The position numbers were made by a program, and so were the translations under genes. From Gammaproteobacteria bacterium 45_16_T64 (GTDB taxonomy: Bacteria; Pseudomonadota; Gammaproteobacteria; Pseudomonadales; Ketobacteraceae): a stretch of 64,000 nucleotides of DNA. Shown here piece after piece: positions 47,807 through 64,000 of the stretch; within the stretch, counting starts at the first letter, position 1, and the number at the start of each line of letters is the position of its first letter. Where the stretch lies: the NCBI GenBank assembly GCA_002162955.1, contig MABD01000016.1, forward strand, positions 1 to 64,000. The letters run 5' to 3'. The notes below the pieces were generated by a model. The model made no database searches and had not been told where the DNA came from. It was given only the letters and a program-made list of their open reading frames with translations.

Positions 47807-50800
47807 TTACTGACCAGACCCCTTTAACAATTCCAGCACCACCCGAGCAAAGCTCTCCGCTTTACTTGGGTCCGACAACAACTGCATCATTTGATTTTGG
47901 TGGGCATCACTACTATCCAACACGGCATCATCAATCGCCTTGGAAAAGCCACCTAAAAGCGCTTGCTCGGTACTATTATTGGCAATTTGATGCATAACCA
48001 GCTCGTTTTCACTGATTTTATCGCGAATCGTATAGGCATAATTCACCAGATCTTTTTCAGTCAGCTCATCTGTGATAAAAACCTCATTAAGCCGACTGAT
48101 AATTTGCGACAGAAACTCTTCTTTCTTATCTTTCGGTTTTGCACCACCCACACCATCACCGGGCGCTAGATATTCCGCTGCATCCTCTTTTAATATGAGG
48201 TTTTGCTGCCGTATTTTCGACAAACGGTAATGACTTAACTCGACATTACTAAGATCCACCTCGTCTTCTTCAATAGCTGCCTCACGTAGCATTGGTCGGA
48301 GATTTCGGGCATAAAGACATAGCCTTTCCAGATCCTTATCGTCGTAATCAACGATTTGCGACATAAAGTCATAAAAGCGCACAAAAGAACCCAAGTCTTT
48401 TTTGAAAATCTCTAACGCGTCTTTCTCTTGTTTGCATTCTTTAAAGCTGTTTTCAGCGTTCGCGATCAATACCGCATCATCAAACCTTTTTTGGCGTTCA
48501 AACATGTCTTTCGCTTGTTTATACGCCTCAATTGCGTGTTTATACTTATGAGTCCAACGCTCAACGGCTGGTTTACAAATATTCGCGATGGCCGCATGGC
48601 TTTTACTTGGAATGTCATAAGCCTCACAAAATTGCTTAACCTCCTGCCAATAAAAGATACCCGCCGCTTTTAACTTGTCCGAAAGATCAAAAATCACATC
48701 AGGGTCAGACACGTCATCTAACTGCACTGTTTGATAATACGGTTGAAACGCCCCCAAAATATCGTCAGGCTCATTAAAGAAATCCAGTACATAGGTACCC
48801 GCCTCAGCCTTACCCGGGAATGTACGGTTTAAACGTGACAGCGTCTGCACGCACTCAACTCCGCCCAGCTTCTTATCGACATACATGGCACAGAGTTTGG
48901 GTTGATCAAAGCCCGTCTGAAACTTATTAGCAACAAGCATCACCTGGTAGTCATCACTATCAAAGGCTTTTCGCAGATCACGGCCTTTAAGACCAGGGTT
49001 CATACCAGACTCAGTAAACTTCTCGCCAATAATGCCTTCAACATTCGGGTCTTTATCACTGAACTCAACTTCACCCGAAAACGCCACCATGGCAACCACC
49101 TTCTGATAACCTTTTTCGGTGATATAGCGATCAAAAGCCAACTTATAACGCACAGCTTCCTTACGTGAGCTGGTGACCACCATAGCCTTAGCCTGACCAC
49201 CCAATAGACCCATCACATTATTTTTAAAGTGCTCCACAATCACCTGCACTTTTTGGCTGATGTTGTAGTCATGCAGGCGCACCCATTGGTTAAGCTTCAC
49301 CTTAGCCTTTTTACTCTCTACCTCCTCATCACTACCAGAAATTTTCATGGCCAGGTTATAAGCCACTTTGTAATTGGTGTAATTTTTTAAGACATCCAGA
49401 ATAAAGCCTTCTTCAATGGCCTGACGCATGCTGTACACATGGTAGGCTTCGGGCTTATTGGTTTTAGAGGGTACTTCATCGGGTTTGGGTAAACGGCCAA
49501 ACAACTCCAGAGTTTTGGTTTTTGGTGTTGCGGTGAAGGCCAGATAACTCAGATTGGTTAATCCTGGGCGTGAAGCAACGGTTGCTTCAATAGCATCTCC
49601 CGAGTCAATCTCTTCATCACCCTCTTTTGTGTCGATCATCAACACTTCTTTTAGCTGTCGTGCGGTACTGCCGGTTTGTGAGCTGTGGGCTTCATCGGCA
49701 ATTACCACATAGTTACGCTGTTTAAGGCTCGCGCTGTTTTCGATGGCTTTTAATACATAAGGAAAGGTTTGAATCGTCACGATAATAATCGGCTGTGAGC
49801 TTTCCAGCGCCGCCGCGAGCTTTTCTGATTTAGAGCCGTCACCTTCGTTACGATTAATACGCCCTACCACACCTTCTACCGAGGTGAACTGGGAGATGGT
49901 TTCTTGTAACTGATCATCCAGTACCGTTCTATCCGTAACCACGATCACCGAATCAAACAGCTTGTTACCTTCTTCCGTATGAATGGCCGATAACTGATGA
50001 GCCGACCAAGCAATAGAATTCGATTTACCGGAACCAGCACTGTGTTGAATCAGGTATTTATGGCCTGGGCCTTCAGTACGGGCGGCATTCACTAACTGGC
50101 TAACCACATCCCATTGATGATAACGGGGGAAGATTAACGTTTCTTTTTTTGATTTACGCCCTTCCCAGTCTTCTTTCTCTTCGATTTGTAAATGCACAAA
50201 ACGGGCAAGAATATTCAGTAGGTTATCGGGCAGTAGTACCTCATTCCATAAATAATCCGTCGCATACTGGTTCACATCCGCTGGCACATCGTTACCAGCA
50301 CCACCGTCTTTGGTTCCTTTGTTAAAGGGTAAAAAGTACGTCTTATCCCCTTCAAGCCGAGTAGCCATATGCACTTCATATTGGCTAACGGCAAAATGCA
50401 CCAACGCCCCGCGTTTAAACGTTAGCAAGGGCTCAGGCTTTTTAGTGGCAGGATCTATCGCAAAACGGGTAGTTTTGTATTGCTTAATGGCGTTTTCTAC
50501 CGCCTGTTTAAACTCTGACTTTAGCTCTAAGGTGGCTACCGGTAAGCCATTCACAAACAACACCAAGTCAATACGCCATTTTTTAGCGCGTGTACCGGTC
50601 TCCGCCTCATGCTCGTCAGTAGCACTCTTATCGTCACACCAAGGTGAATACACCAACTCCGGCACCACCCGCAGACGGTTCTCTTTGTAACGCGCTAGCG
50701 TATCCGGATTTAAATCATGCTCGGGTTTAAACTGGCATAAACTAAAGCGAGTACCACGATCACGTAGTTCGTGACGTAACACCCCCAAGGTGCCATAGGT

Positions 50801-51067
50801 ACGCATTTCTTTATTGGCGGCGTTAGGATCGGCTTTATTCAGCTGAGAGGCAACACGTTCTAAGAATTTACCGTCTGGGTCATTCGGATACAGCGCTTTG
50901 AACTTTTTCCACTGATCCTTCTGGGTGTCTTTAACAAAACCCAACACATCCTCTGAATACAACGCCAGTTCACGGTTGTAACCACTGGGTTTGCCTAGTA
51001 ACCAACCGTTATCCACCAACTGCTGGATCATTTCATTTTGAAATGCGAATTCACTCGCGCTTGCCAT
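47807..51067 (-). CDS. hsdR: Type I restriction enzyme R subunit
   Basis: The motor and nuclease subunit of a type I restriction-modification complex, 1086 residues. The N-terminal PD-ExK nuclease has RIDLVLFVNGLPVATLELKSE (read as D...ELK). The SF2 translocase has Walker A SAGSGKS near residue 350, VIADEAHSSQ and motif VI-type FQTGFDQP. The C-terminal helical domain should contact HsdM. AAGGAAG lies before the ATG. All motifs are intact, which contrasts with the truncated hsdM of the same operon. Confidence 0.94.
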   Translation of the reverse strand: MASASEFAFQNEMIQQLVDNGWLLGKPSGYNRELALYSEDVLGFVKDTQKDQWKKFKALYPNDPDGKFLERVASQLNKADPNAANKEMRTYGTLGVLRHELRDRGTRFSLCQFKPEHDLNPDTLARYKENRLRVVPELVYSPWCDDKSATDEHEAETGTRAKKWRIDLVLFVNGLPVATLELKSEFKQAVENAIKQYKTTRFAIDPATKKPEPLLTFKRGALVHFAVSQYEVHMATRLEGDKTYFLPFNKGTKDGGAGNDVPADVNQYATDYLWNEVLLPDNLLNILARFVHLQIEEKEDWEGRKSKKETLIFPRYHQWDVVSQLVNAARTEGPGHKYLIQHSAGSGKSNSIAWSAHQLSAIHTEEGNKLFDSVIVVTDRTVLDDQLQETISQFTSVEGVVGRINRNEGDGSKSEKLAAALESSQPIIIVTIQTFPYVLKAIENSASLKQRNYVVIADEAHSSQTGSTARQLKEVLMIDTKEGDEEIDSGDAIEATVASRPGLTNLSYLAFTATPKTKTLELFGRLPKPDEVPSKTNKPEAYHVYSMRQAIEEGFILDVLKNYTNYKVAYNLAMKISGSDEEVESKKAKVKLNQWVRLHDYNISQKVQVIVEHFKNNVMGLLGGQAKAMVVTSSRKEAVRYKLAFDRYITEKGYQKVVAMVAFSGEVEFSDKDPNVEGIIGEKFTESGMNPGLKGRDLRKAFDSDDYQVMLVANKFQTGFDQPKLCAMYVDKKLGGVECVQTLSRLNRTFPGKAEAGTYVLDFFNEPDDILGAFQPYYQTVQLDDVSDPDVIFDLSDKLKAAGIFYWQEVKQFCEAYDIPSKSHAAIANICKPAVERWTHKYKHAIEAYKQAKDMFERQKRFDDAVLIANAENSFKECKQEKDALEIFKKDLGSFVRFYDFMSQIVDYDDKDLERLCLYARNLRPMLREAAIEEDEVDLSNVELSHYRLSKIRQQNLILKEDAAEYLAPGDGVGGAKPKDKKEEFLSQIISRLNEVFITDELTEKDLVNYAYTIRDKISENELVMHQIANNSTEQALLGGFSKAIDDAVLDSSDAHQNQMMQLLSDPSKAESFARVVLELLKGSGQ

Positions 51068-51138
51068 ACCCGTACTTCCTTTTATTCTATCGGAGCCAAC
51101 GCTTTAACCAGCGCTTAAATTTCTTTACTAATACTAAC

Positions 51139-52104
51139 CTAACTAACCTCGTAGCTTTGACAAATCAAAGGTTTCGCTTTTTCTAAATCTTCAGCACTAC
51201 GAATATTCACCTCAATATCACCGGTACCCCAGTGTCCGACGCCCGTCATATCACGACAAAGGTCATCGTTAACTGCAACCTCCCTTGGTAATTTCAAATA
51301 CACCTGTAATTTAGGGTCTTTTTTACCGCTCATAATTACAATCGACACAAAGTTTTTAATGCGCTTAAAGGCGGTATACAGCTTTAGATCTTTACGCTGC
51401 ACCTCATCCCCCAGCTGATCGGTAAAGCCGCATAACTCCTCGAATAAGGCGGCTAGATTAGGCGGTGCACCCGCAAGCCGCTCTGCCTGTGTTTTGTCTG
51501 TGCCGTTTTTCTTGCCACTTGTTAAATTTTTTACAGACGATTCTGGTAAATTGACCGCCGCCTGTTGTGTTAAGGCCTGTGCCTTTGTCTGATGGGTTGC
51601 ACTTTGCGCGTTCACCAGCTCTAGCAACAATAGGTCATTACCAAAATAACGGTAACGCATCAGCTCGATATTACGGTTAATCTGTTGTACGGCGTGTTCA
51701 TCATATTTATTGAAATCCGCCGCAATGCAGATCAAGCGAGTTCCCGACCACTCAATGGTTTCAGCAACATCATTACCGAGATGTTTCATTACCAGCAACT
51801 GAAACTCTGCCTGATGATCTAACAACCAATCTAAATAGAACAAACCCTGATTGATCACATTTTGATTTTTAGAACGTTTGTATTCGATGATTACCGGGCA
51901 GCCATTTTCATCCAAACCTAACGAGTCGATACGCCCCTTATGGGTTTTACCGGTATCGTATTCTGAAGCAAGGAACTGAACCCCCAGAAACGTTTGCATA
52001 TTAGACTCGATCTGCTTTTGCAGATTACTTTCTAACGTAGCAATACTACCGGCCAGTTCAGTAAAAACCTCACCAGATTGAGAGAACAGCTTGATATCAC
52101 TCAC
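51139..52104 (-). CDS. DUF5655 protein with PD-ExK-like nuclease N-terminus
   Basis: A 321-residue protein. The N-terminal half carries GRIDSLGLDENGCPVIIEYKR, a PD-(D/E)xK-type core (D then E-x-K), and FNKYDEHAV. The C-terminal half has the DUF5655 pattern (KLYTAFKRIKNFVSIVI, GTGDIEVNIRSAEDLE). Such proteins recur in type I restriction operons; the role is unknown. Start is GTG at 52104. It sits between rhuM-fic and hsdR with gaps of about 70 nt on each side. Confidence 0.72.
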   Translation of the reverse strand: MSDIKLFSQSGEVFTELAGSIATLESNLQKQIESNMQTFLGVQFLASEYDTGKTHKGRIDSLGLDENGCPVIIEYKRSKNQNVINQGLFYLDWLLDHQAEFQLLVMKHLGNDVAETIEWSGTRLICIAADFNKYDEHAVQQINRNIELMRYRYFGNDLLLLELVNAQSATHQTKAQALTQQAAVNLPESSVKNLTSGKKNGTDKTQAERLAGAPPNLAALFEELCGFTDQLGDEVQRKDLKLYTAFKRIKNFVSIVIMSGKKDPKLQVYLKLPREVAVNDDLCRDMTGVGHWGTGDIEVNIRSAEDLEKAKPLICQSYEVS

Positions 52105-52176
52105 ATTATCGACCCTATATTAATCAAGAGGTATGTTTGTCTTTCCTATACTTCTATTACTTCAATCTCGTATCCC

Positions 52177-53157
52177 TTATCGAACCAAATTCATAATTAA
52201 ATGAATCATTAACTCTTTTTGTGCCGGGTCACTTTGCGCCACCAATAACGCAATCGCTGCCAAGGCATTATCATTGATTTTTAATTCCCCCGACTTCTTT
52301 CGGTGATGCTCATTGCGCTGTAAAAACCAGATAAACATAAACGCGCCAATGCGTTTATTGCCATCGCTGAAGGGGTGGTTTTTGATGATGAAATACAGCA
52401 GATGTGCGGACTGTGCTTCGATGCTGGGGTACAGATACTCATCACCGAAGCTCTGCACCACTGAACCTAGTACACCGGCAAAGCTATCGTCTTTTTCATT
52501 GCCCACCAGTTCGGTTGCTTCACCTTTGGCTATTAGATTCTTTACCAACAAGGCGATAGCAGCGCGAGCTTCGTCATAGTTGATTTGGTAACGGATATCC
52601 TCATCGAAATCAGCGGTGGGCAGTCGCTCACTATCAAACTGGTTGAGCAGAACAAAGGTATTGGTGTAATCTGCGATGATTTTTACCAAGCCTTGCGCTT
52701 CTGGCAAGCTAGCCTGATCTATCACATTTTGCTGAAACAGACTGAGGGTTTGCTCCAACTGGTTCAGCTGGTCTTTGTGTTGCTGCAGTCGTTTTTCATT
52801 CAGCGTATACCCTTGCACCAGATGCTCTTTTAGGCGTGCAGTAGCCCACTGACGAAACTGAGTGCCCTTTTGGGAGTTCACACGATAACCGACTGAAATT
52901 ATGGCATCCAAGTTATAATATTCAACCTGATAGATTTTGCCATCTGAGGCAGTTGTTGCATTTTTTGCAACAACTGCCTCTTTGTCTAACTCATTGTCTT
53001 TAAAGACATTTCTCAAGTGACGGGAGACTACCGATTTATCTCGACCAAACAAGTCTGCTATCTGAAGCAAGCTTAACCACAAGGTTTCCTGAGCGGCATC
53101 CAGCTGCACTTCAATGACATTATTTTCCCCTTCGTAAATCAGTATTTCATTCTTCAT
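52177..53157 (-). CDS. RhuM-family / Fic-domain fusion protein
   Basis: A 326-residue protein. The N-terminal RhuM-like part has FGRDKSVVSRHLRNVFKDNEL and YNLDAIISVGYRVNS. A coiled-coil-like middle (about 118-145) leads to a Fic/Doc domain with the active-site loop HPFSDGNKR at 261-269. Fic proteins transfer AMP or phosphate to target proteins. ATG at 53157 follows AAGGAAAG and overlaps the stop of the 62-aa ORF by ATGA. Its place inside a restriction operon suggests a defence or toxin role, as inference. Confidence 0.85.
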   Translation of the reverse strand: MKNEILIYEGENNVIEVQLDAAQETLWLSLLQIADLFGRDKSVVSRHLRNVFKDNELDKEAVVAKNATTASDGKIYQVEYYNLDAIISVGYRVNSQKGTQFRQWATARLKEHLVQGYTLNEKRLQQHKDQLNQLEQTLSLFQQNVIDQASLPEAQGLVKIIADYTNTFVLLNQFDSERLPTADFDEDIRYQINYDEARAAIALLVKNLIAKGEATELVGNEKDDSFAGVLGSVVQSFGDEYLYPSIEAQSAHLLYFIIKNHPFSDGNKRIGAFMFIWFLQRNEHHRKKSGELKINDNALAAIALLVAQSDPAQKELMIHLIMNLVR

Positions 53158-53342
53158 AGCACTTTCCTTGTAACTAATTGAATATCCATTATTCCAGCAT
53201 ATTCCAGAATAGAACCTATTGATTTGATACCAACGGATAAGCAATGCTTAGCAGTTGAATTTTGAGCAGCCACAGCATGTTTATAGGCTGATTTAATAGG
53301 CTCGAAGCTAGCACAGTGCTCTTGATAAAGCGCCGCACTCAT
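53154..53342 (-). CDS. 62-residue ORF coupled to hsdS and rhuM-fic
   Basis: A short ORF whose ATG overlaps the hsdS stop (ATGA) and whose stop overlaps the rhuM-fic ATG (ATGA). Both couplings argue that it is translated. The sequence (SAALYQEHCASFEPIKSA, AAQNSTAKHCLSVGIKS) has no motif that I know; two cysteines are present. It could also just be a spacer that carries ribosomes from hsdS to rhuM-fic. Confidence 0.5.
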   Translation of the reverse strand: MSAALYQEHCASFEPIKSAYKHAVAAQNSTAKHCLSVGIKSIGSILEYAGIMDIQLVTRKVL

Positions 53343-54763
53343 GCGACGACTTCTTTGTTGTTGATGTTTGGCGATTCTGAGGGCTGCCCGCCTTCTGGAT
53401 TAAAGTGTCTTACGTCGATTTTACCGGTGACAGCTGCAGAGATTAGGGCTGTGCGGCGCTCTTGTAATAAATCGATCTGCCTTTGCGCTGACAATTCTAG
53501 CAATTCAAATTTGTCTTTCATTTCGTCCAAAAATACGGAAATATCAACTTGCTCACCATAAGGCGGGTAAGCAAATTTATATTGGCGAAACGTTTCTGCC
53601 GGTAAATGAGCGATCGTTGCTTTAGCTACTCCACCACTGAACCGTTCTTGATGCACGGCATCAAACATCACATAAAACATAAAGCGGGAATTATCACGAG
53701 AGTAATTATATGGTCTAAGACGGTGTAACGCTTTTTGATAAAAACACTTATCATCATTCTCCCAGATAGCACTTCGCCCAATTTCTCCGCCTTCACAGAC
53801 TATCAAGTCTCCTGCTTCAACGGAGTAGCGCCGATGTTCTTCAGGCCGGAAGTCCATCTTCGGAAGATCTTCTGTGTTAATCCTATCCCATTGAACATCG
53901 GTATTTCGTAAATATGCACCGAGGTAATCACCTGTAATTTTCTTATCATCTAGCATCTTACCCAAAAGAACTTCGTAACGATAAGAGAGCTTTACAACAT
54001 CCCAATGCTCTGGCACTTCACCTAACCATTCAACACCTGAGTCGCGCATGGGGGCGTTGGGGTTGAGGCCTTTCGTGACGGCATGGCTGATCACAGCTTG
54101 GCGTTTTTCTTTTAGCAGTTTGATCAGCTGTTGTTGTTTTTCGATCAGGGTGTCGATTTTAGCGGTTTCGTGGTCGAGGAAGTTGGCAATTTTTTCTTGT
54201 TCGGCTTCTACCGGAAAGCCAAACTTTTCAGCTAAATAGGCCGATGAATCTAAGTTCTGGATCCCTGTGTTTTGCTTAATCGAACAATAGTTAATATTCT
54301 CACTATAAAACCTACTAAAAACATAGTTTAAAAATCTGCTATTAAACCCTGATTTTGGTGTCATCTTCGCAACAAAATTAGATGTCACAGCTTCAAATTC
54401 TTTATCGAACAAGACAACCTGCCCAACCAACGTCTTCTCTCCACCCCCAGATTTCTCGAGCAATAAATCACCACGCTTTAACTTGCGTGTTAGTTTTTCT
54501 TTCTCTTCGATCTTGCGGTAAGTATACCCAGCTTCTTGCAGTGAGAGCTTAGGCCGATCAAAATCAGCGACACGAAGAACCACTGTGTTATTTCCATCTT
54601 TTTCCGGTTCAGTCCCCCAAATGCCATTTACACACCCATCAATTGTTCGTTTTAGTTGCATAACCTCCCAGTGACCAGGGATTTTACCAAGCCCACTGAT
54701 GCCAGAATCTTTATACTCAGAGTAAGCCTCATATTTTCCGCTCAAAACCATTCCCTCTGCCAT
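53339..54763 (-). CDS. hsdS: Type I restriction enzyme S (specificity) subunit
   Basis: A 474-residue DNA-recognition subunit with two target recognition domains (about 25-190 and 240-410). Each starts with a G-x-I/V-P-x-H-W block (LGKIPGHWEVMQL, LGEVPEHWDVVKL) and is followed by a conserved helix (EKIANFLDHETAKIDTLIEKQQQLI; ISVFLDEMKDKFELLELSAQRQ) that spaces the halves. The two half-sites define a bipartite target. Complete. Its ATG overlaps the stop of the small hsdM-tail ORF as TAATG. Confidence 0.92.
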   Translation of the reverse strand: MAEGMVLSGKYEAYSEYKDSGISGLGKIPGHWEVMQLKRTIDGCVNGIWGTEPEKDGNNTVVLRVADFDRPKLSLQEAGYTYRKIEEKEKLTRKLKRGDLLLEKSGGGEKTLVGQVVLFDKEFEAVTSNFVAKMTPKSGFNSRFLNYVFSRFYSENINYCSIKQNTGIQNLDSSAYLAEKFGFPVEAEQEKIANFLDHETAKIDTLIEKQQQLIKLLKEKRQAVISHAVTKGLNPNAPMRDSGVEWLGEVPEHWDVVKLSYRYEVLLGKMLDDKKITGDYLGAYLRNTDVQWDRINTEDLPKMDFRPEEHRRYSVEAGDLIVCEGGEIGRSAIWENDDKCFYQKALHRLRPYNYSRDNSRFMFYVMFDAVHQERFSGGVAKATIAHLPAETFRQYKFAYPPYGEQVDISVFLDEMKDKFELLELSAQRQIDLLQERRTALISAAVTGKIDVRHFNPEGGQPSESPNINNKEVVA

Positions 54764-54881
54764 TACGAATGCACCTCTTGTAGCAGATTCATAATCTCAG
54801 CACTTACAACACCCAAATCCGCACCAATCTCCACCAAATTTCTAGGAAATTGATACAGATAAAAATAACAATTAAATTGAA
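54760..54881. repeat. Diverged direct repeat, copy A (hsdM 3' end remnant)
   Basis: About 120 nt that match 55949-56070 at an offset of 1189 nt, for example the shared GAATGCACCTCTTGTA, then CATAATCTC and CCAAATCCGCA. The two copies flank yhcG. Confidence 0.8.
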
Positions 54882-54906
54882 TCAAAGCCTGTTCTATTAA
54901 TGTCAT
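54763..54906 (-). CDS. 47-residue ORF, duplicate of the hsdM C-terminus
   Basis: Residues from about 11 ([18 protein letters not shown], then [15 protein letters not shown]) repeat the last 37 residues of HsdM ([18 protein letters not shown], then [15 protein letters not shown]) with differences. The DNA of 54761-54880 is a diverged copy of 55950-56069. Its ATG overlaps the yhcG stop (ATGA) and its TAA overlaps the hsdS ATG (TAATG). It looks like the original end of hsdM left in front of hsdS when yhcG was inserted. Confidence 0.7.
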
Positions 54907-55952
54907 AATTCACTCCCTAGCTCGCTTTCAATTTCCTCAATACTAGGCAAACTGGATCTCAGATTATCCGGCAAAGTCTGAGTCAGCTGATACTCAGTAA
55001 CACCTAACGGTTTTTGAATATCACTCAGGGCATATTCCACCACCGTTTTATCTTTGTTTTTACATAGCAAAATGCCAATTGTGGGGGCATCACCCTCCTG
55101 ACGCAGCTGTTCATCAACCGCTTTGATATAAAAGTTTAGCTTACCAGCATGCTCGGGTTCAAAGTCAGTGATTTTCAGCTCTATCACCACATGACAATGC
55201 AGTCGCGTGTGGTAAAACAGCAGGTCTAAATAAAAGTCGCGATCCCCCACCTGAATAGGAACCTGCTTTCCCATGTAAGCGAAACCTGCACCTAGCTCTA
55301 ATAAAAACTGGCTAATATGGTCAATCAATCCCTTTTCTAATTCTCGCTCGCTGTAGTTTTTGCTGAGGGTGAGAAAATCAAACACGTAGGGATCTTTTAA
55401 GGTTTGTTGGGCAAGATCAGACTGTACTGCTGGCAAGGTTGATTCAAAATTACTGATGGCTTTGCCTTCGCGTTGATATAACCCGCTTTCAATCTGGTGC
55501 GTCAGTACACTGCGGCTCCAACCATGCTCGATGGTAGCGCGTACATAATAGAGTGCCTCTTGGGTAGTTTGGCACTTGCTGATGATATGTACATTATGCC
55601 CCCAAGGAATAGCAATCAATTGGGCAACAGCCTGTTGCCCAATTGATTGACCTCCTACCCAAAAGCGATGCCACTGCCTAATATACTTAATATTTCTTTC
55701 TGAAAATCCTTTAATCTCAGGGAATTCAGCTATTAAATCCTGGCTCAGTTGTTTTATAAAACCGCTACCCCAACTGGTTTGTTGCTGGCGCTTAACAATT
55801 TCTTCACCCAGTTCCCAATAAAACTGCAATAAACTGCTGTTTACCTGCACCGCCGCTTTTAGCTGTGTTTGCCTGAAGCGATTCTTTAAATCACCTAACC
55901 ATTGACCATATGCACTATCATGCTTTATCGGATCTTTGCTTTCACCTGCCAT
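54903..55952 (-). CDS. yhcG: YhcG-family (DUF1016) PD-(D/E)xK nuclease
   Basis: A 349-residue protein. The N-terminal DUF1016 helical domain (residues 20-160; [45 protein letters not shown]) is followed by a PD-ExK core: [21 protein letters not shown], with D and E-x-K in place. Members are found as extra genes in type I restriction operons. Start overlaps the hsdM stop (TAATG). The gene is flanked by the two copies of the hsdM tail, so it seems to have been inserted between hsdM and hsdS. Confidence 0.88.
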
Positions 55953-56070
55953 TAAGAATGCACCTCTTGTAACAGACTCATAATCTCGGCACTCACGGCA
56001 TCCAAATCCGCATCAATCTCTACCAAATCCCGCGGTGGCTGATATTGATAAAAATGGCGGTTAAACGGGA
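55949..56070. repeat. Diverged direct repeat, copy B (3' end of hsdM)
   Basis: The end of the hsdM reading frame, matching copy A at 54760-54881. Confidence 0.8.
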
Positions 56071-57484
56071 TTTCATATCCAACGATGCCCACTTCCTGAT
56101 CTTTTTCATCTCTCTTATTGGCGTCTATCCAGGCATCAGGCACATGGGGTTGCACTTCTTTTTTGAAGTAGGCTTCGTTTAGCGCATTGACCGCTTGTGA
56201 AGGATCAAGGTTAACGTTTTCATTATCTCGCAGGTCGCCATCAGGTTTGTATTCAACAACGCTTTTTCCATTACCCCCATCCACCTCAAACATGCCGTAC
56301 AGCGGATTGGCTTCGGTGTTTTTATGCACCTTCTTAATCACCTTTTCCGCTTCTGGGTTTTTCCAGCTTACGGCGGTGGTGATTTGTTTTTTCTCTTTGG
56401 TATCTAAGGTAATGCCTTGGGCTTTGCAGGCTGCTTTGAGGGCAGCTTCATAACCGTTCATATCATCACACTGCTCGGTACCCATACATTGTGGAGAGCC
56501 TTGTTGCAGTTTCTTGGCTTTAAGCAGGGTTTGTTTTTGAGCCGTCCAGGTTTTACTATCTAACAGCTCTTTAATCTTGGCTTCTTTCAGGTCGCTGAAA
56601 TTCTGTTTGATATGCTTTCGAATTTCCGTCTCGAATTCGGCAAGCTGTCCATAATGCGGGCAATCTTCTTCATCCGTCCAGGTACCATTACTGGCTTTTA
56701 ATTGCTCAGCGTATAGCCATTTCATCGGTGCATTTAAGGGCTTGGGGGCAAAGCGCAGTTCAGCTAAACGCTCATCACTGAATTGATAACTCTCGCGTAA
56801 TGGACGCTCAATGGTGATACGACGGTAGCCAAATTCATGGGTGGAAAAAATTTTGCTGGCGAAGGTTTTTGGCGTTTCTTGCTTTGGATTTGCCGATTGA
56901 CGACCACGATTACTTTTTTGCTCGGCAGGTTTGTCGAGTTCTCTTGCGTCAACAACTTCAAAGGCACCAAAGCTGCGAGTAATGGTGGCGATATCATCGG
57001 CACTCATCTCATTACGTTTTGAGCCTAGGGATTTACGCATTTTACCGCAGAGATTAACGCCGTTAATGAGCTGTACTTTTCCACGTCGCCCCGGCAGACC
57101 TTTACGTTCAGCTTCTTCGTCAGATATTTTTTTATTCGATAACACCCATACGTAGGTAGCAATGCCGGTGTTGTAGAACATATCAGTGGGGAGCGCGACG
57201 ATGGTTTCTAATAGGTCGGCCTCAAGGATGTAACGGCGGATTTCGGATTCTCCGGAACCTGCCCCGCCCGTAAACAGTGGTGAGCCGTTAAGAATTATAC
57301 CAATACGACCGCCACCCTCTGATGTATCCCGCAATTTGCTGAGCAAGTGCATAAGGAATAATAACGAGCCATCAGAGACGCGAGGTAAACCTGGACCAAA
57401 GCGTCCGCCGAAGCCCTTGAGGGCGTTTTCGTCTTTGATAGTTGATTCTATTTTTTTCCAATCTACACCAAAGGGTGGATTCAT
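55952..57484 (-). pseudogene. hsdM: Type I methyltransferase subunit, 5'-truncated at the NPPF motif
   Basis: 510 codons of an N6-adenine methyltransferase subunit. It starts right at the catalytic motif (M then [10 protein letters not shown]) and has the rest: [28 protein letters not shown], and a long C-terminal part that binds HsdS. About 250-300 residues that should precede it, the helical N-terminal domain and the SAM-binding motif I, are absent. In frame upstream of the ATG only two codons remain before a TAA. So methylation cannot be expected from this piece alone. The lost part is replaced by a 216-nt gap and the DISARM-like operon. Confidence 0.85.
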
Positions 57485-57700
57485 GTAATATTAACTCTTT
57501 TAACGGGATACAAAATATATCCTTTAATTTCAATAACTTGAAACAAACAACGGCATCCAATAAAAAATGCAGAAAAACTCTTATCAGGCTACATTTTTTC
57601 GTGTATATATTTCTGAATAACAATCCGGCGCCCGCCAACCAATATCAGAGAATAGGTTAGTAGTAAGTCTGCTATATGCCCTGAATAAATCTACACTCAG
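57485..57700. other. Junction between truncated hsdM and the DISARM-like operon
   Basis: 216 nt, A/T-rich, with no convincing ORF, terminator or transposon end. An AAAAGAG lies 10 nt before the truncated hsdM ATG and could allow weak translation. It is the place where the two defence systems meet. Confidence 0.6.
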
Positions 57701-59374
57701 TTAGACACACTCTTTTATCACCACAAGTAAATGCTTTGCTCGAGAACAAGCCACATAGTAGTCAGACTTCGTAAAATTAAATGACTCATCCTCTGGGACA
57801 TCAAAGAGAATAATTGCATCCGCCTCCAGTCCCTTGAACCCTCTTACTGTAGAGAATAAAATACCTTTACCGTCTTTCCAGTCTCGAATATTGTCAATTA
57901 ACGGTACTCCCTTGATCTTACTAGTTCCTTTTAGTGAGCAGTTCGACATTTTGTTTGGCGATAAAACAGCCACCTGTTGAGCTTTTAACTTGCCCTTATT
58001 AACCCACTCGTGAACATAGCGCTCTATACGTTTTTTGATATCGAATTCGAGATCCAGGGCTATAACTACAGGTTCAATTCCTACCGGTGCGTCTTCCCGA
58101 GTGGGCACAGGTACTTCTAGAATCTCACTACAATGTTCCGCTATTAATTTGGTATTTCGACAATTAACAGGTAACTGAAATGGATCACCTAGTGCAGGCA
58201 GAGAGGTGACCTGATCAACATAGAGGTTTTGTTTAGGATCAAAGAAAACATACATAGCACCTTCTTCTTCCTTGCTATTAATCATCTCAAGAGGCACCCA
58301 CCAATTCGGGTAAAAATCTTGCCCTTCATCAACAATAACAGCATCAAACCTCTGTTCGACCATATCAATAGCATCAATTAGGTTTTCTGGGGCAGTTTCT
58401 TTCCAGAATTTATCGCTATTATGAGATGGAGGGTTAAAAGGCACATGCGCCTGCTTACACCAGTCATAACAAAGGCCGTGAAAGTGTTTTACTGTGATTC
58501 TGCCTTTATACGACTCATCAATGGAGTCATTAATCCACTCGACGAGTTGCTTGTTATAACAAACCAACAATGTAGATAGGCCTTGATCGGCAAATTTAAT
58601 CGCTTGCGCTTGTGCGAGCATCGTTTTTCCTGAGCCAGCTACACCATTTATACAAGCCCTCTTTCTTGCGGCTAAAAATTCTAAAGCTTGTAATTGAATA
58701 CTTGTGAGTCTAAATAGCTTTTCCTCTTGTTCTTCGACTTTTCTAAACAAAACAGGCAACAGCTTAAACCCAGGGGATATAGCTTGTTGTATTTTTGCCA
58801 TATCATCTTTTGATAATGGAACAGGCTTATCTCGTCTTATCCACTGAGTTAACGCACCCTTCATGTTCCTATCTAAATACGGCAAATCACTTGCTGAAAA
58901 TATGATGACCGGCTCAGAGCCAGGAGGAGTTGGGCCTGAATACTCACAATCAGGAAAAACAACAGCATAGCCAAATCCAAAAGGAAGGCTATTGGCCCCC
59001 TGATAGCCTCGCAACTTAATAGCGTTTTCAAGGTAATGTGTATTTCGACTTGCCTGCTCAAAAGGGTCTTGAATAGACTTTAATCTTCCACCTGAAAGAA
59101 CTCTACTCCATCGCCTGCCATCGGCATCATAGTCAATTTCACCCCCCTTCACTTCTAGCACTAACATACCATGTGAAGGAATTAGTATGACGAAATCAGT
59201 TTCACCCTCCTTGATTGTTGTGTTACCACGATCATTTCTGTCAGTTTTTAGCCACGGGTAGGAATGATATATGACACAATCATCAGGGAGTTGGTCGACC
59301 AAACACCGCGCCACATCTCTCTCAGACTTAACGTTGATATCATCGATTTCTACTTTTGGTATTAAGCGGGCCAT
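57701..59374 (-). CDS. NERD-domain nuclease fused to SF1 (UvrD-like) helicase
   Basis: A 557-residue protein. The N-terminal NERD domain (about 15-125) has a PD-ExK-like core, GETDFVIL and LEVKGG (D60, E74, K76). The SF1 helicase has Walker A NGVAGSGKT (about 243-251), Walker B VIVDEGQDFYP, and a C-terminal motif (VRGFKGLEADAIILFD, YYVACSRAKH). ATG at 59374 has AAGGA seven nt upstream; GTG at 59380 is the alternative. It lies about 10 nt after drmC and is probably the last gene of that operon. DNA or RNA cleavage coupled to unwinding is inferred. Confidence 0.85.
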   Translation of the reverse strand: MARLIPKVEIDDINVKSERDVARCLVDQLPDDCVIYHSYPWLKTDRNDRGNTTIKEGETDFVILIPSHGMLVLEVKGGEIDYDADGRRWSRVLSGGRLKSIQDPFEQASRNTHYLENAIKLRGYQGANSLPFGFGYAVVFPDCEYSGPTPPGSEPVIIFSASDLPYLDRNMKGALTQWIRRDKPVPLSKDDMAKIQQAISPGFKLLPVLFRKVEEQEEKLFRLTSIQLQALEFLAARKRACINGVAGSGKTMLAQAQAIKFADQGLSTLLVCYNKQLVEWINDSIDESYKGRITVKHFHGLCYDWCKQAHVPFNPPSHNSDKFWKETAPENLIDAIDMVEQRFDAVIVDEGQDFYPNWWVPLEMINSKEEEGAMYVFFDPKQNLYVDQVTSLPALGDPFQLPVNCRNTKLIAEHCSEILEVPVPTREDAPVGIEPVVIALDLEFDIKKRIERYVHEWVNKGKLKAQQVAVLSPNKMSNCSLKGTSKIKGVPLIDNIRDWKDGKGILFSTVRGFKGLEADAIILFDVPEDESFNFTKSDYYVACSRAKHLLVVIKECV

Positions 59375-59384
59375 CTGCACATCC

Positions 59385-60530
59385 TTATTGTGTTAATTCT
59401 ACAGCTAGCGGGTAGAACATTTCCCATTCATCTTCCGTCAGTTTAAAGCTTTGCGTAGCGGAAAATCCGCGGATAGAGATTAAGTAAAACTGCTCTTCAT
59501 TGTTATTCATATCTTGTTGACGTGACCAGGTATATTTACCTACCATCAATTTTCCATCGCGCTCAACAACAACCACCGAGTTAGCTTTAGGCTTATCTTC
59601 ATTTTCACTGCAACGAGAAAACACTCTTGTTTCTTCAATATCCTGCTTTTCATTTTTAAACTGAACAATGGCAGACTTGGAGTGTTTTAGAGTATGCGCT
59701 AACACACCAAGTGAGATTGACTGATACTCTTTAAATTTTCCCCCTCGACTAGTGCGATTAACTGAATATGGAATAATTTCTTTACTGCTAATCATTGAAG
59801 TTAACTGACAACATATCCCATCAGGTATACTACCGCCAACAATATGCACTCCCATCTCAATATTTTTATCAAGTGCCGCCGAGGTTAAGTTTGCGCTTGT
59901 CACAAACGCTATATTTTTGTCCGCTACTGCACATTTAGCGTGCACCCTCGCAAACCCAACTCCCGCGTCCTCTCTATTCTCTCGCGGCCAAACATAAAGA
60001 ATGATTCCTGGTATGACATCATTAAGACGAGCAACGGTTTCTCGAAAGTCGCTTGAATTTTCTTTGTCTTCAGACTCAATCAACATTCTTACATCAACAC
60101 CGCGCTCCACAGCTTCAGCGATTGCCCCCTCTACTGAGGGAATATTAATCAAAACGAAAGAAACAATAAAAAGGGAATCATTCGCAGAATTAATAACATC
60201 AAGTAGAACTTGTTCGGAACGCCGAACAGGGAATTGATTTAGATCAGGCCCCGTCCATACGAGGTCGACCTTCTCTCGATTTCTTTCTTCAATATATCCA
60301 AAAGATACACCTGCAATTAAACCCGCTAGTTCATCGTTTGTGCTACCTAATCGTTCCCACTCAGTTAAAACGCCTTCCAATAGTTTGTTAGCAGCATCTG
60401 TCGTGAAATGGCCACATAAAGACAAGTAATTATCAACGGCCGTAGCTTTAATACGCGTACATAATGATTTAACCTTCGCAGGATGTTGATCTTGTACCAA
60501 TTCAAAAATTGCAGCTGAAAGTCTATCCAT
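59385..60530 (-). CDS. drmC: DrmC-like phospholipase D-family protein
   Basis: A 381-residue PLD-superfamily protein with one HxKx4D motif (H197, K199, D204, then N214), as in the DISARM component DrmC, which may cut nucleic acid as a dimer. The helical N-terminus (1-90) and the PLD part (95-255) fit DrmC. A further 125 residues at the C-terminus (FKEYQSISLG..., beta-rich) look like an added domain. Start follows the drmB stop by two nt. Confidence 0.82.
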   Translation of the reverse strand: MDRLSAAIFELVQDQHPAKVKSLCTRIKATAVDNYLSLCGHFTTDAANKLLEGVLTEWERLGSTNDELAGLIAGVSFGYIEERNREKVDLVWTGPDLNQFPVRRSEQVLLDVINSANDSLFIVSFVLINIPSVEGAIAEAVERGVDVRMLIESEDKENSSDFRETVARLNDVIPGIILYVWPRENREDAGVGFARVHAKCAVADKNIAFVTSANLTSAALDKNIEMGVHIVGGSIPDGICCQLTSMISSKEIIPYSVNRTSRGGKFKEYQSISLGVLAHTLKHSKSAIVQFKNEKQDIEETRVFSRCSENEDKPKANSVVVVERDGKLMVGKYTWSRQQDMNNNEEQFYLISIRGFSATQSFKLTEDEWEMFYPLAVELTQ

Positions 60531-60532
60531 GA

Positions 60533-62401
60533 TTAATCGTTCCCAAATAAAGCGGCATCAGCGTTATCAAGTGTTGGTACTACCAACGCTCGATCGAGAT
60601 AACGATTGCCTTTCTCACAGGATGTTTCCGCAGCAAAAGTACAGGCATGACAAGCAGCAGCATGAAGAGACCTATCTTTTTCCGGCTTATGTTCTGAACA
60701 CAAAGGGTCTGAAGAGCATACTTTTGCCCGATTTAATGCCTGATCAAGCAAACGCCCCAAATTTTCAGGCTTACCAAGTTCCACCAGACCACCTAATGTG
60801 CCATCAGAGTCAGCCGCAGCGGTATAAATGAGAATACCTGCCTGACTGTTATCGTTACTTGTATCTCCATAAATCCGCTCTCGGATACTCGCCGCGTTAT
60901 AACCACATTCCAGTGCCAACTCTCTAATCAAAAGATGGGATATTGTGTGTAATAGAACATAACGTATACCCGGATAACCCTCTTCAGACGATAACTTTCT
61001 TGAATTCCTCCAACCTCTATGCCCTTCAAATAGAGAAGCATTAATCGCTTGAACGGCTGGCTTGGCCTCCCATTTCTTCAATACTGCCTCATTAAATTGG
61101 ATAAAAACACCTTCTCCATGAACCTGACTGGCTGGCACCCAGTTCGGCGATTCATTAGATAGACCTGCCATGGGAGGTTGTTCACCTGGTGCATTACTTT
61201 CTTCAGGCGCTTCGACACGGGTGAAACCAATTAGCGCATTCACCTCTCTCAAACGCTTCAAAAGAAGTACATTTTCAATTTCATTTTTGTAATGAGCTGG
61301 TTTATCGACAACCTCACTTAGAAAGTGTGGCCAATCATTTGGAGGATTTGGCTCAATAAAAACTTCCCATTCAGGGCCTTTGATATCTTCCTGTGTGACA
61401 TCATCACCAATCTCCCCTTTATTAATGGCATCAATCACACTCCACACTTCTTCATGCGTATATTGATCAATACCTGGTAAAATTGCGTTCTTTACAAGCA
61501 CCTTTAAAATAGCTTTCACTTCTAATGCAGATTCAACATCGACAAAATTGTCCCAACCATCTTGTACCAATTGAATGATTGGATCTCGCGATAATGGTAT
61601 AGCCAATGCAGATAGGGTTACCGGAAACCAACTGTTAGTAGCGCCTAAAAGAACACCTCGGGGTACTTCATCACAAATTGCGTCATATTTATCTAGATGC
61701 GGATGCCTTCCCCTACAAGCAGGTAAGTTCTCTTTACCGGCCTTCCCAAAAGCCTGCGCCATATTACGCTTAGCGTCACAGCTATCACACTTAACCCATA
61801 GGTTTTCAGTTTGCAGCGAGGCCCCACTTTCGAAAAACCGCAAGCCCCCAGTACAACCGGACCTACCGCCATGAACATAATAGCGCCATGGAAAATCATC
61901 TAAGTGTCCATTTCTACAGGCCATTAAGAAACGCGCCGGGACAGCATCAGCATCTTTAGCGGGCTTATCTCCTTTGGAACCACGACAAGACTCATGTACA
62001 AAGCGCGTATTTTCTGGTCGATATCGACTCTCTTTTATCTTAAACAACCCAGAATCATACTCTGCTAACATACCGCACTTCACGCAACGCAACCATCGAG
62101 GAAATGGCCTCACCGGCACACCGATTCGCGCTTCAGCAGACCAAACATCCGTATGTTTCGTTTTTACAAAGGGTGGCATACGCATACTTTCTACTTGCGG
62201 GCCTAAACGCTGTTTAACAGCTGTCAACAAACGAGCCTCAGTTACCGGTGGACATCTATCTCTATCCCAACGATCAATTCCCAATGTCACGACGGAAAGA
62301 CTCGGCATATCAATCAATGCACCCGGACCGTATGTCCAAAGCAATTGGCTCGGACGAACTTCACCAACAGGGGTTATATCGGAAGTATTTTTATTACTCA
62401 T
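60533..62401 (-). CDS. drmB: DISARM protein DrmB (DUF1998)
   Basis: A 622-residue protein matching DrmB in layout: an N-terminal GEVRPSQLLWTYGPGALIDMPSLSV signature, zinc-type cysteine pairs (CVKC, CDSC; LKCxxC-like), and a C-terminal DUF1998 domain with GYPGIRYVLLHTISHLLIREL and a cysteine group (CHACTFAAETSC, CEKG). DrmB forms a complex with the DrmA helicase that blocks phage DNA. Its ATG overlaps the drmA stop (TAATG). Confidence 0.9.
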   Translation of the reverse strand: MSNKNTSDITPVGEVRPSQLLWTYGPGALIDMPSLSVVTLGIDRWDRDRCPPVTEARLLTAVKQRLGPQVESMRMPPFVKTKHTDVWSAEARIGVPVRPFPRWLRCVKCGMLAEYDSGLFKIKESRYRPENTRFVHESCRGSKGDKPAKDADAVPARFLMACRNGHLDDFPWRYYVHGGRSGCTGGLRFFESGASLQTENLWVKCDSCDAKRNMAQAFGKAGKENLPACRGRHPHLDKYDAICDEVPRGVLLGATNSWFPVTLSALAIPLSRDPIIQLVQDGWDNFVDVESALEVKAILKVLVKNAILPGIDQYTHEEVWSVIDAINKGEIGDDVTQEDIKGPEWEVFIEPNPPNDWPHFLSEVVDKPAHYKNEIENVLLLKRLREVNALIGFTRVEAPEESNAPGEQPPMAGLSNESPNWVPASQVHGEGVFIQFNEAVLKKWEAKPAVQAINASLFEGHRGWRNSRKLSSEEGYPGIRYVLLHTISHLLIRELALECGYNAASIRERIYGDTSNDNSQAGILIYTAAADSDGTLGGLVELGKPENLGRLLDQALNRAKVCSSDPLCSEHKPEKDRSLHAAACHACTFAAETSCEKGNRYLDRALVVPTLDNADAALFGND

Positions 62402-64000
62402 TACACACCTCCCTTATCTACATTCGATTTTGGCACTTGAGGCTTCCAGGCTGGACCTTCATCTATTCTTTTAGTATTCATCTGTAATTTAACACCGGGC
62501 TCAACTTCACGCATCGACATTGGAACAGTAAAGCGCCCCCATTCGTTAATGCCTGGGGATTTAACTAAAGCGACTTTAGAATCCACATTCTCGCCTCGCT
62601 TTTCATATGCAACAGTACGTCCTGCCACCGCAGTTTCTTTTACCCAATGATCCACGCGATCTTTGATACAACCTTCAGCCAAATCTCTGGATGTTACATC
62701 CTCTTCCACCATCCACACCCTATCAGTAATGGATTGCATCATTTCATTTACCGCAGGTGTCGATGTTTGTTTTAAGGTTGACGCACCGTCATTTGGGTTA
62801 AGGTCATCATCACCCAAACGCATCATACTTAACATCGCACCAGTTAGGCCCCTATCCATCGCTCGGGGGGAGAATGGCGTAACAGACTGCGCTTCTACAT
62901 GCTTGTAGAAGGTGGCATGATAATGTTCAAAGGTTTCATAATGAGATAAATCTCGAGGTCTTGCCCAAGTCAGCACAGTACACACCAGGCCAGGAAAACT
63001 ACGCCCCACCCGACTGGTTGCCTGTATGTACTCTGCCGTGCTTTTAGGCTGTCCATTTACGGCCATAACACCAAGACGATTAACATCCACCCCTACAGAA
63101 AGCATGTTAGTGGCTAATACCACATCAATGGCCCGACTTTCTCCCTCTTCCCATTTAGTAACGTACTTGCCTTCTTGAGCATCGTACCGAGCCTTAAACT
63201 TCACTTCCAACTGATCAAGGTATTTGGGGATATCCTGACTCGATACCCGTGAGGTTAATTCCTTGATGTTATTTACACTTCGCTGGGCTAAACCTGGCCT
63301 TTCAACCAAGCTCATTTGCACACGATATGAACGCGTTTGCACATCATCTTCAGCTAAACGCTTCATACCCCCTAACTCACGGAGTGAATTGAAATAACCA
63401 ACACTCGTCATATAAGGATCTGCAACTTGACCAAAGCGATCAAATAAAGCTTGGGATGCAGTTAAGAACGCCGTGTACACTCTAATAAGAACCGCTGGCC
63501 GCGCACTACCTGGTGAGCAAACCCCCATGTAACGTCGGCCATAATGCTCCTCAATAGGCCTCTGCACAGAGAAAAAGTTATCTTCAACATCCAAACCATG
63601 AGGCGGGAATACCGATACCTGGCGCATAAATACGCCGCTAACTTGCTCTTTGGCTTTACGAACCGTCGCTGTTGAAGCAATGATTTTTGGCTTGATGGTA
63701 TTACCTTCATATTGCCATGAAGACAACTCATCAACAGCCGTTTCATATAGACCCACCATCGTACCTAATGGACCACTAATTAGGTGAAATTCATCTTGAA
63801 TAATCAAATCTGGTGGCCGTAAAGGTGAAATTACTTTTACTTTTGTTGCTGCCCCGAGTTTCGATTTAGCATGGTTACCCGTGCAACACTTTTCATCTTT
63901 CCAAATCAACCCATGGCGCTCACACTCTAAACTCGCCTTTCCAAATAAATTTCGTGTTGCACCTCGCCAAGCCATCATGGCAAATTTGTCGACCGTAGCA
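62401..64000 (-). CDS. drmA: DISARM helicase DrmA, C-terminal part (runs off the window)
   Basis: 533 codons of an SF2 helicase open to the right edge. It has a Walker B of DEFH type (LIIQDEFHLISGPLG), motif III STAT, motif V-like NMLSVGVDVNRLG and motif VI QATSRVGRSFPG. The reading frame continues above ATG 63978 (VDKFA then MMAWRG), so the N-terminus and Walker A lie beyond position 64000. Together with DrmB it forms the core of DISARM anti-phage systems. The methylase gene expected for DISARM is not in the window. Confidence 0.9.
   Translation of the reverse strand, partial: ATVDKFAMMAWRGATRNLFGKASLECERHGLIWKDEKCCTGNHAKSKLGAATKVKVISPLRPPDLIIQDEFHLISGPLGTMVGLYETAVDELSSWQYEGNTIKPKIIASTATVRKAKEQVSGVFMRQVSVFPPHGLDVEDNFFSVQRPIEEHYGRRYMGVCSPGSARPAVLIRVYTAFLTASQALFDRFGQVADPYMTSVGYFNSLRELGGMKRLAEDDVQTRSYRVQMSLVERPGLAQRSVNNIKELTSRVSSQDIPKYLDQLEVKFKARYDAQEGKYVTKWEEGESRAIDVVLATNMLSVGVDVNRLGVMAVNGQPKSTAEYIQATSRVGRSFPGLVCTVLTWARPRDLSHYETFEHYHATFYKHVEAQSVTPFSPRAMDRGLTGAMLSMMRLGDDDLNPNDGASTLKQTSTPAVNEMMQSITDRVWMVEEDVTSRDLAEGCIKDRVDHWVKETAVAGRTVAYEKRGENVDSKVALVKSPGINEWGRFTVPMSMREVEPGVKLQMNTKRIDEGPAWKPQVPKSNVDKGGV

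Follow-up and report, generated by a model that had tools for sequence, protein, structure and literature searches.

A NERD nuclease-helicase gene at the end of a class 1 DISARM operon

What is a nuclease-helicase gene doing at the end of a DISARM operon that already encodes the nuclease DrmC? The question arises in Gammaproteobacteria bacterium 45_16_T64 (GenBank GCA_002162955.1, contig MABD01000016.1; assembly 6.49 Mb), where we analysed a window of 64,000 bases, i.e., positions 1-64000 of a 78,234-base contig. The final operon gene, here called NERDhel, joins a NERD nuclease domain to a superfamily 1 (SF1) helicase. As judged from sequence comparisons, NERDhel is probably an alternative DISARM nuclease, which would replace DrmC in other operons and join it in this one. 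We regard it as a DISARM component because of gene content, conserved residues, recurrence, operon spacing, co-inheritance with DrmA and alternation with DrmC.

All genes of the operon lie on the minus strand. NERDhel occupies 57701-59374 (557 aa from its likely start, ATG 59374; an in-frame alternative, GTG 59380, gives 559 aa, and residue numbers below are counted from this GTG). It is preceded by drmC (59385-60530; 381 aa; a phospholipase D (PLD)-type nuclease with HxK(x)4D at residue 197), drmB (60533-62401; 622 aa; an MrfA-type zinc-binding, DUF1998-type protein) and the 3' part of the drmA helicase gene (62401-64000), whose whole 1356-aa frame reaches contig position 66471. The drmA and drmB genes overlap by 1 nt, drmB and drmC lie 2 nt apart, and 10 nt separate the drmC stop from the NERDhel ATG. 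Past the window, in contig coordinates and on the same strand, lie a gene for an AspBHI-like restriction enzyme (66440-67663; 407 aa), drmMI (N6-adenine; 67666-71808; 1380 aa), drmD (71808-74945; 1045 aa), a drmMII-like C5-methyltransferase gene (74984-76033; 349 aa) and a small helix-turn-helix gene (76540-76872), which is a putative upstream member of the operon.

The genes of the window operon make up a complete class 1 DISARM, two methylases included, and follow the order drmMII, drmD, drmMI, AspBHI-like gene, drmA, drmB, drmC, NERDhel. PADLOC defines type I DISARM by DrmA, DrmB, DrmC, DrmD and DrmMI, all required, and by DrmE, which is forbidden (PMC9252829). PADLOC and NCBIfam models find all five required proteins, and DrmE is neither among the PADLOC matches listed for the eight operon proteins, the best 25 families of each, nor in the NCBIfam scan of nine locus proteins. 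The class 1 assignment follows from the presence of this gene set and from DrmE not being found in the scanned proteins; the same scans leave the operon without the DrmE that type II (class 2) demands. The PADLOC scores are 1554 bits for DrmA, 289 for DrmB, 492 for DrmC (residues 1-379), 1710 for DrmMI and 294 for DrmMII; those of NCBIfam (cut-offs in brackets) are 1462 (950) for DrmA, 750 (240) for DrmB, 205 (133) for DrmC and 1382 (610) for DrmD. For the DrmD protein, a PADLOC model labelled DrmA (1605 bits) outscores the PADLOC DrmD models (1476 bits), and NCBIfam names it DrmD. On NERDhel, Pfam reports NERD at 41.5 bits (cut-off 22.1) together with SF1/UvrD helicase matches. Motifs are kept in DrmC (HxK(x)4D), DrmMI (NPPF), DrmMII (PCQPF and ENV) and the AspBHI-like protein (GGRD and EAK).

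An earlier note, made from the window alone, had recognised a DISARM-like operon, and the family scores of DrmA, DrmB and DrmC bear this out. It placed the NERD-SF1 gene about 10 nt after drmC and considered it extra to the standard DISARM gene lists, both rightly; of the 1-2 nt overlaps that it saw from drmA to drmC, the one between drmA and drmB is real, and drmB and drmC are separated by the gap given above. It also saw no methylase, and indeed no DISARM methylase lies within 50000-64000, which led it to propose a nuclease acting in place of, or beside, methylation. Extension past 64000, as it had advised, reveals drmMI, the drmMII-like gene and drmD directly upstream on the same strand, with the methylase motifs present. 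We therefore reject a methylation-free DISARM: a variant in which nuclease action replaces methylation is next to impossible, and "beside" survives. The note had named, as evidence that would tell against it, standard drmM and drmD genes upstream together with no recurrence of the NERD helicase elsewhere; the former came true, and the search for the gene order in other genomes, which it had also proposed, finds that the NERD helicase does recur with drm genes.

Recurrence of NERDhel with drm genes

A scan of the genome_contigs collection with the single NERDhel protein, which reaches close relatives only, confirmed six loci (L and G numbers are our handles for loci and genomes). Leucothrix arctica and Vibrio hepatarius share the order drmMI-drmA-drmB-long drmC-NERDhel, with NERDhel identities to the operon of 70 and 69% (BLASTP); further upstream lie drmMII-drmD-drmMI in Leucothrix and drmMII-drmD in V. 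hepatarius, where drmD is interrupted by the contig end. Since the order is the same in these two genomes and the catalytic residues are kept, we consider the arrangement to be beyond chance. A short contig from a metagenome-assembled genome (MAG; L054) holds drmC-NERDhel. A second MAG (L055) encodes a NERDhel of 68% identity after a 75-aa drmC remnant and an IS3-type transposase, according to its open reading frames (ORFs); we read this locus as a lost or decayed class 1 DISARM operon. A Phycisphaerae MAG carries drmA-drmB, two more genes and then NERDhel, and the Cyanosarcina match (30%), which starts 385 nt from a contig end, has no DISARM visible.

Among 96 near genomes, 15 match NERDhel, the window's own genome counted, and 20-kb stretches were read for two of them, both from the window's family. 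One (G382) is a class 1 operon headed by drmMII, in which drmA and drmB flank NERDhel at a distance of 9 nt on either side. The other (G379) has the order drmE-family gene, NERDhel, drmA, drmB, C5-methyltransferase, AspBHI-like gene; NERDhel sits between a drmE-family gene and drmA in G789 and G720 as well. We rejected the idea that a leading drmMII gene distinguishes operons with NERDhel, as drmMII also heads the NERDhel-free class 1 operons of G779, G249 and Microvirga.

Loci sampled through DrmA, regardless of NERDhel, give the frequency of the association. In 369 genomes of the class, 35 match DrmA at E<=0.001; of these, 12 score 45 bits or more and were retained, and the other 23, at about 16-21 bits, were excluded as presumed ordinary helicases (frames of 538-775 aa, one of 233 aa). 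NERDhel lies within about 5 kb of drmA in 9 of these 12 loci, or 8 of 11 without the window; in G125 and G172, it is on the opposite strand and convergent to drmB. These two loci (L105/L106) are near-identical, DISARM-like and found in genomes of two different families, a likeness that suggests recent transfer. A sample of 398 phylum genomes yielded 15 DrmA matches at E<=1e-8, two of them already in the class sample; NERDhel is present in three of the 13 new loci (G709, G720, G789) and absent from 10, and G648 encodes an SF1 helicase without the NERD part. Over all drmA loci sampled in this way, the window excluded, NERDhel occurs in 11 of 24, two of the 24 being fragments. Sorted by the DrmA tree, the unselected loci have NERDhel in 9 of 10 cases in the DISARM-like clades and in 0 of 6 in the class 1 clade (Fisher p 0.0009, relatedness ignored).

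Plasmids display the same association. DrmB is matched by 55 records and NERDhel by 62, of which 60 were listed, and at least nine carry both within 10 kb, where independence predicts 0.05 records with both. Seven of these nine are from Rhizobiaceae or Azospirillum, some being near-copies, and the other two are from Rhodococcus opacus B4 and Deinococcus gobiensis; in the stretches retrieved for six of nine, NERDhel adjoins drmA or drmB. The spacing is that of an operon: in 19 of 21 NERDhel loci, a same-strand neighbour overlaps the gene or lies within 15 nt. This close neighbour is drmA, drmB or drmC in 14 loci, the gene of a fused YprA-type helicase (over 2,000 aa) in Leisingera and Paracoccus, and another ORF in L057, L099 and L101. 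In the Leisingera and Paracoccus plasmids (L062:5713-14728 and L063:5843-14669), NERDhel comes right after the fused helicase (2,052-2,094 aa), and a DrmD-like SNF2 gene lies near on the opposite strand (domain scan for Leisingera only).

Shared inheritance and alternation with DrmC

The NERDhel tree (43 rows, with seven repeats of the same loci removed; midpoint root, some deep forks weak) places six class 1 rows, including the decayed L055, in one clade (support 100/99), sister to the NERDhels beside the fused YprA-type helicases of Leisingera and Paracoccus. Ten DISARM-like rows form a second clade (99/97), and 17 of the 21 rows without DISARM fall outside the DISARM side of the tree. In the DrmA tree, which omits G465 and G620 (fragments) and G487, all class 1 rows are joined with support 93/99, and the four with NERDhel form a clade (100/98) whose sister, G249, has no NERDhel. 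G382, from the window's own family, branches outside the window, Leucothrix and Vibrio in both trees, and NERDhel thus tracks the DISARM operon and not the host. We read these trees as a sign that one class 1 lineage acquired NERDhel a single time and that the position of the gene changed later. The class 1 drmMI of G249 consists of two pieces, separated by a 526-aa ORF (L139:1637-7592).

Outside this lineage, NERDhel and DrmC alternate in the loci examined. We searched 39 stretches with one profile for DrmC and one for NERDhel, G487, G465 and G620 being left out; the former was built from 11 of the sequences then matched, and the latter from 23 sequences, some of them from loci that it later scored. 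Both proteins are found in 5 of the 39 (the window, L052, L053, L054 and G382), all in the window's clade. NERDhel occurs without DrmC in 19 DISARM-type loci, and DrmC without NERDhel in nine, comprising six clear and three weak DrmC-like matches (29-37 bits); three more stretches (L055 and two fused-YprA loci) have NERDhel only. The window's DrmC also has matches in 19 of the 55 plasmid records with DrmB; none of these is among the nine with NERDhel, where an overlap of 3.1 is expected (p 0.015, uncorrected for relatedness).

Several observations weigh against a DISARM function of NERDhel. The best PADLOC match of the protein, as its sequence is scored, is a helicase associated with defence reverse transcriptases (see below). 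Relatives without DISARM (L107, L108, L065 and L056) share its part of the tree; L056 begins 385 nt from a contig end, and its upstream side lies outside the sequence. In L055, NERDhel persists after the loss of drmA and drmB, beside another defence candidate. None of the six unselected class 1 loci has NERDhel, which is therefore dispensable in class 1, and it is also missing from the class 1 plasmid loci of Microvirga and Deinococcus AJ005, both retrieved by their DrmB match. Three DISARM loci of the 39 stretches (L116, L117 and L120) have neither nuclease. Finally, NERDhel searches were the source of 8 of the 19 loci that have NERDhel without DrmC, and the stretches of L098 and L119 end near the operon.

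The occurrence of NERD-SF1 helicases with other systems and without DISARM, the persistence of NERDhel in L055 and the type I restriction cluster that adjoins it in the window would also fit a self-sufficient defence gene that a DISARM operon has picked up at its end, and which works alone and shares only transcription. We consider this account unlikely, since the association spans several phyla, NERDhel also sits inside operons (between drmA and drmB, or between a drmE-family gene and drmA), neighbouring genes overlap by a few nucleotides, and NERDhel alternates with DrmC. The decayed locus itself (L055:8190-15506) contains transposase-like ORFs, the drmC remnant, an intact NERDhel and then a match of 1541 bits to the PADLOC candidate PDC-S68.

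Properties of the NERDhel and DrmC proteins

NERD residue Asp62 and helicase residues Lys252, Asp351, Glu352, Arg408 and Arg547 are identical in all 27 rows linked to DISARM or YprA, and NERD residues Glu20, Glu76 and Lys78 in 26 of 27, with one alignment gap each. The same catalytic residues are kept in nearly all rows without DISARM linkage, too. At the level of sequence, this conservation argues for an intact enzyme and not for a DISARM role. NERDhel matches the PADLOC models RTasNERD-Hel (201 bits) and C3a187 (120 bits) over nearly its full length and with the same domain order, whereas the genomic partner differs: no reverse transcriptase was recognised in the scanned operon proteins (PADLOC, among the matches listed, and Pfam). 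Nor is the operon a Gabija system, as GajB models reach at most 23 bits on NERDhel and GajA is not among the PADLOC matches listed for the eight operon proteins.

The structure models are weak (mean predicted local distance difference test score, pLDDT, 68; predicted template modelling score, pTM, 0.40), and their fold matches are only consistent with a PLD nuclease for DrmC and an SF1 helicase for NERDhel. The NERDhel model lies near SF1 helicases that include the nuclease-helicase Dna2 and Schlafen proteins, which may hint at a safeguard or repair factor that clears stalled or cut DISARM intermediates on host or phage DNA. This role is improbable in our view, because alternation with DrmC fits an effector better than a safeguard.

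The NCBIfam DrmC model spans residues 12-247 of 381, leaving about 134 extra residues and upholding the C-terminal addition of about 125 described in the earlier note. The long form is already known, as an existing PADLOC DrmC model of 381 positions matches it end to end. The extension is found in the window, Leucothrix, V. hepatarius and the L054 fragment, and NERDhel adjoins drmC in each; it has no matches on plasmids at E 0.01. A role of the extension as a NERDhel adaptor finds no support beyond this co-occurrence, and G382 combines NERDhel with a short DrmC. The 75-aa ORF of L055 had suggested a free-standing extension domain, but it lies behind the IS3-type transposase and is best read as a drmC remnant.

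The AspBHI-like enzyme and accessory genes

The product of the AspBHI-like gene has the domains of the AspBHI/MspJI type, namely an AspBHI-type N-terminal domain and an Mrr-type catalytic domain (Pfam, 214 and 50 bits). In three operons, those of the window, G379 and G720, genes for an AspBHI-like enzyme and a C5-methyltransferase accompany NERDhel and drmA-drmB; these two genes are adjacent in G379 (L061:2523-4691) and G720 (L122:13796-16215). Because the AspBHI-like gene lies inside the operon and, in these two relatives, beside a C5-methyltransferase, it may plausibly form a second layer of defence, directed at modified phage DNA; if so, the enzyme would catch phages whose altered bases would otherwise hide them. 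The gene is not supported as a fixed class 1 partner. Neither the Leucothrix nor the V. hepatarius genome contains a match to it (a search without positive control), and none of 21 plasmid records with an AspBHI-like gene has DrmB within 10 kb. A C5-methyltransferase lies within 5 kb in two of four plasmid AspBHI-like neighbourhoods and not in the other two.

Other accessory genes were seen. Downstream of drmB in G789 (L121:14677-17003) are RmuC-family and exonuclease-I-like genes, comparable to a reported RmuC-type DISARM accessory. Five plasmid loci of DISARM or DISARM-like type that include a C5-methyltransferase also carry genes annotated as very short patch repair (Vsr)-type endonucleases (L143:5985-6434, L067:14679-15095, L145:4294-4746, L147:17612-18067 and L148:1832-2332).

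Possible mechanism and relation to known systems

Unmethylated DNA carrying a 5' overhang activates DrmAB, and 5-methylcytosine reduces the DrmAB ATPase activity (PMC9142583). In the same work, Bravo et al. did not co-purify DrmC, found it dispensable and called the DISARM nuclease a mystery. DrmC is also often missing, and a nuclease-helicase that recurs in DISARM operons without it offers a concrete, testable candidate for the step that disables phage DNA. In a plausible mechanism, DrmMI and DrmMII would mark host DNA, DrmAB would load onto unmarked DNA that has a free single-stranded end and translocate, and NERDhel, with DrmC in the window operon, would degrade the exposed DNA. NERDhel would thereby supply DrmAB with a nuclease and a second motor, and the AspBHI-like enzyme may cut phage DNA bearing foreign cytosine marks. 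We infer the coupling of NERDhel to DrmAB and the NERDhel substrate, as well as what DrmD, the C-terminal extension of DrmC and the AspBHI-like enzyme would do.

A wider reading, to which we grant slightly less than an even chance, is that NERD-SF1 proteins supply the effector nuclease in a large fraction of DISARM systems that has gone unrecognised. A third layout would then consist of drmA-drmB and NERDhel without DrmC, and one class 1 lineage would have taken the module in beside DrmC, mostly in its extended form; the window operon would combine two nucleases with an enzyme against modified DNA. In the loci of the third layout, the drmE-family gene and the C5-methyltransferase are each optional. 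Since it has no DrmC, this layout fails the five-gene definitions of type I and of type II, the latter comprising drmE, drmA, drmB, drmC and drmMII (PMC9252829), and searches that demand DrmC seem to miss a recurrent form of DISARM. In the annotated records that we consulted, NERDhel is named, e.g., as "NERD domain-containing protein" or "AAA family ATPase".

What is new here is NERDhel as the last gene of a class 1 DISARM; the DISARM class and the long DrmC were already known. Class 1 systems such as that of Serratia sp. SCBI share drmA, drmB, drmC, drmD and drmMI with the window, domains included, and the published description allows drmMI and/or drmMII, of which the window operon carries both (PMC9142583). 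The window adds NERDhel, the AspBHI-like gene and the long DrmC. Class 2 is approached by the relatives G379 and G720, with a drmE-family gene, drmA, drmB and a C5-methyltransferase, and by G789, with a drmE-family gene, drmA, drmB and a gene matching drmMII at 25% (BLASTP). Unlike class 2, these three have NERDhel and no DrmC match, and the window operon encodes DrmD and DrmMI, with no DrmE in the scanned proteins.

In a limited literature search, with most subscription papers and the original DISARM paper outside its reach, we found no published description of NERD with DISARM. Branches of the YprA family are accompanied by nucleases, DrmC being that of DISARM, a RelE-GajB-like helicase being described for ARMADA II and a NERD endonuclease for TALON; in the main text of that source, "NERD" appears twice, in the TALON passage and in a reference title (PMC12458937). 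As far as its available part goes, ARMADA II and TALON have an unsplit YprA helicase, which ends in a Vsr-type nuclease in ARMADA and in an inactivated RNase H domain in TALON; TALON also has TPR-CSD and TBP genes, and both are described without NERD-SF1 plus DISARM (PMC12458937). In the window, by contrast, drmA and drmB are separate, neither contains a Vsr domain, and no RNase H, TPR-CSD or TBP domain is present in the eight operon proteins (Pfam), setting the operon apart from both. The YprA relative DruE is described as a helicase-nuclease effector (PMC13192584), and NERD is listed under Mokosh type I and Nhi-like (PMC10952713). A precedent for a nuclease-type gene embedded in DISARM-like operons is the Shield-type protein ShdA, which is RmuC and not NERD-SF1 and, in the part of the source available, is reported from Pseudomonas only (PMC10270631).

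With regard to modified DNA, the pairing that we infer for the window resembles another defence arrangement, in that a methylation-based system stands beside an enzyme against modified DNA, whereas the core system and the enzyme differ from DISARM and the AspBHI-like protein. The example is a plasmid, reportedly described by Picton in 2021, that carries both BREX and the type IV enzyme BrxU.

Neighbouring genes

Next to the operon, and beginning 216 nt after NERDhel, lies a type I methylase gene (55952-57484). Its reading frame begins at the NPPF motif, and the N6_Mtase profile is covered only from 132 to 279 of 311 positions, so that the front part is missing. Beyond it, a defence island at 47807-55952 encodes HsdR-type, HsdS-type and YhcG/DUF1016-type proteins, a DUF5655 protein and a RhuM-Fic fusion.

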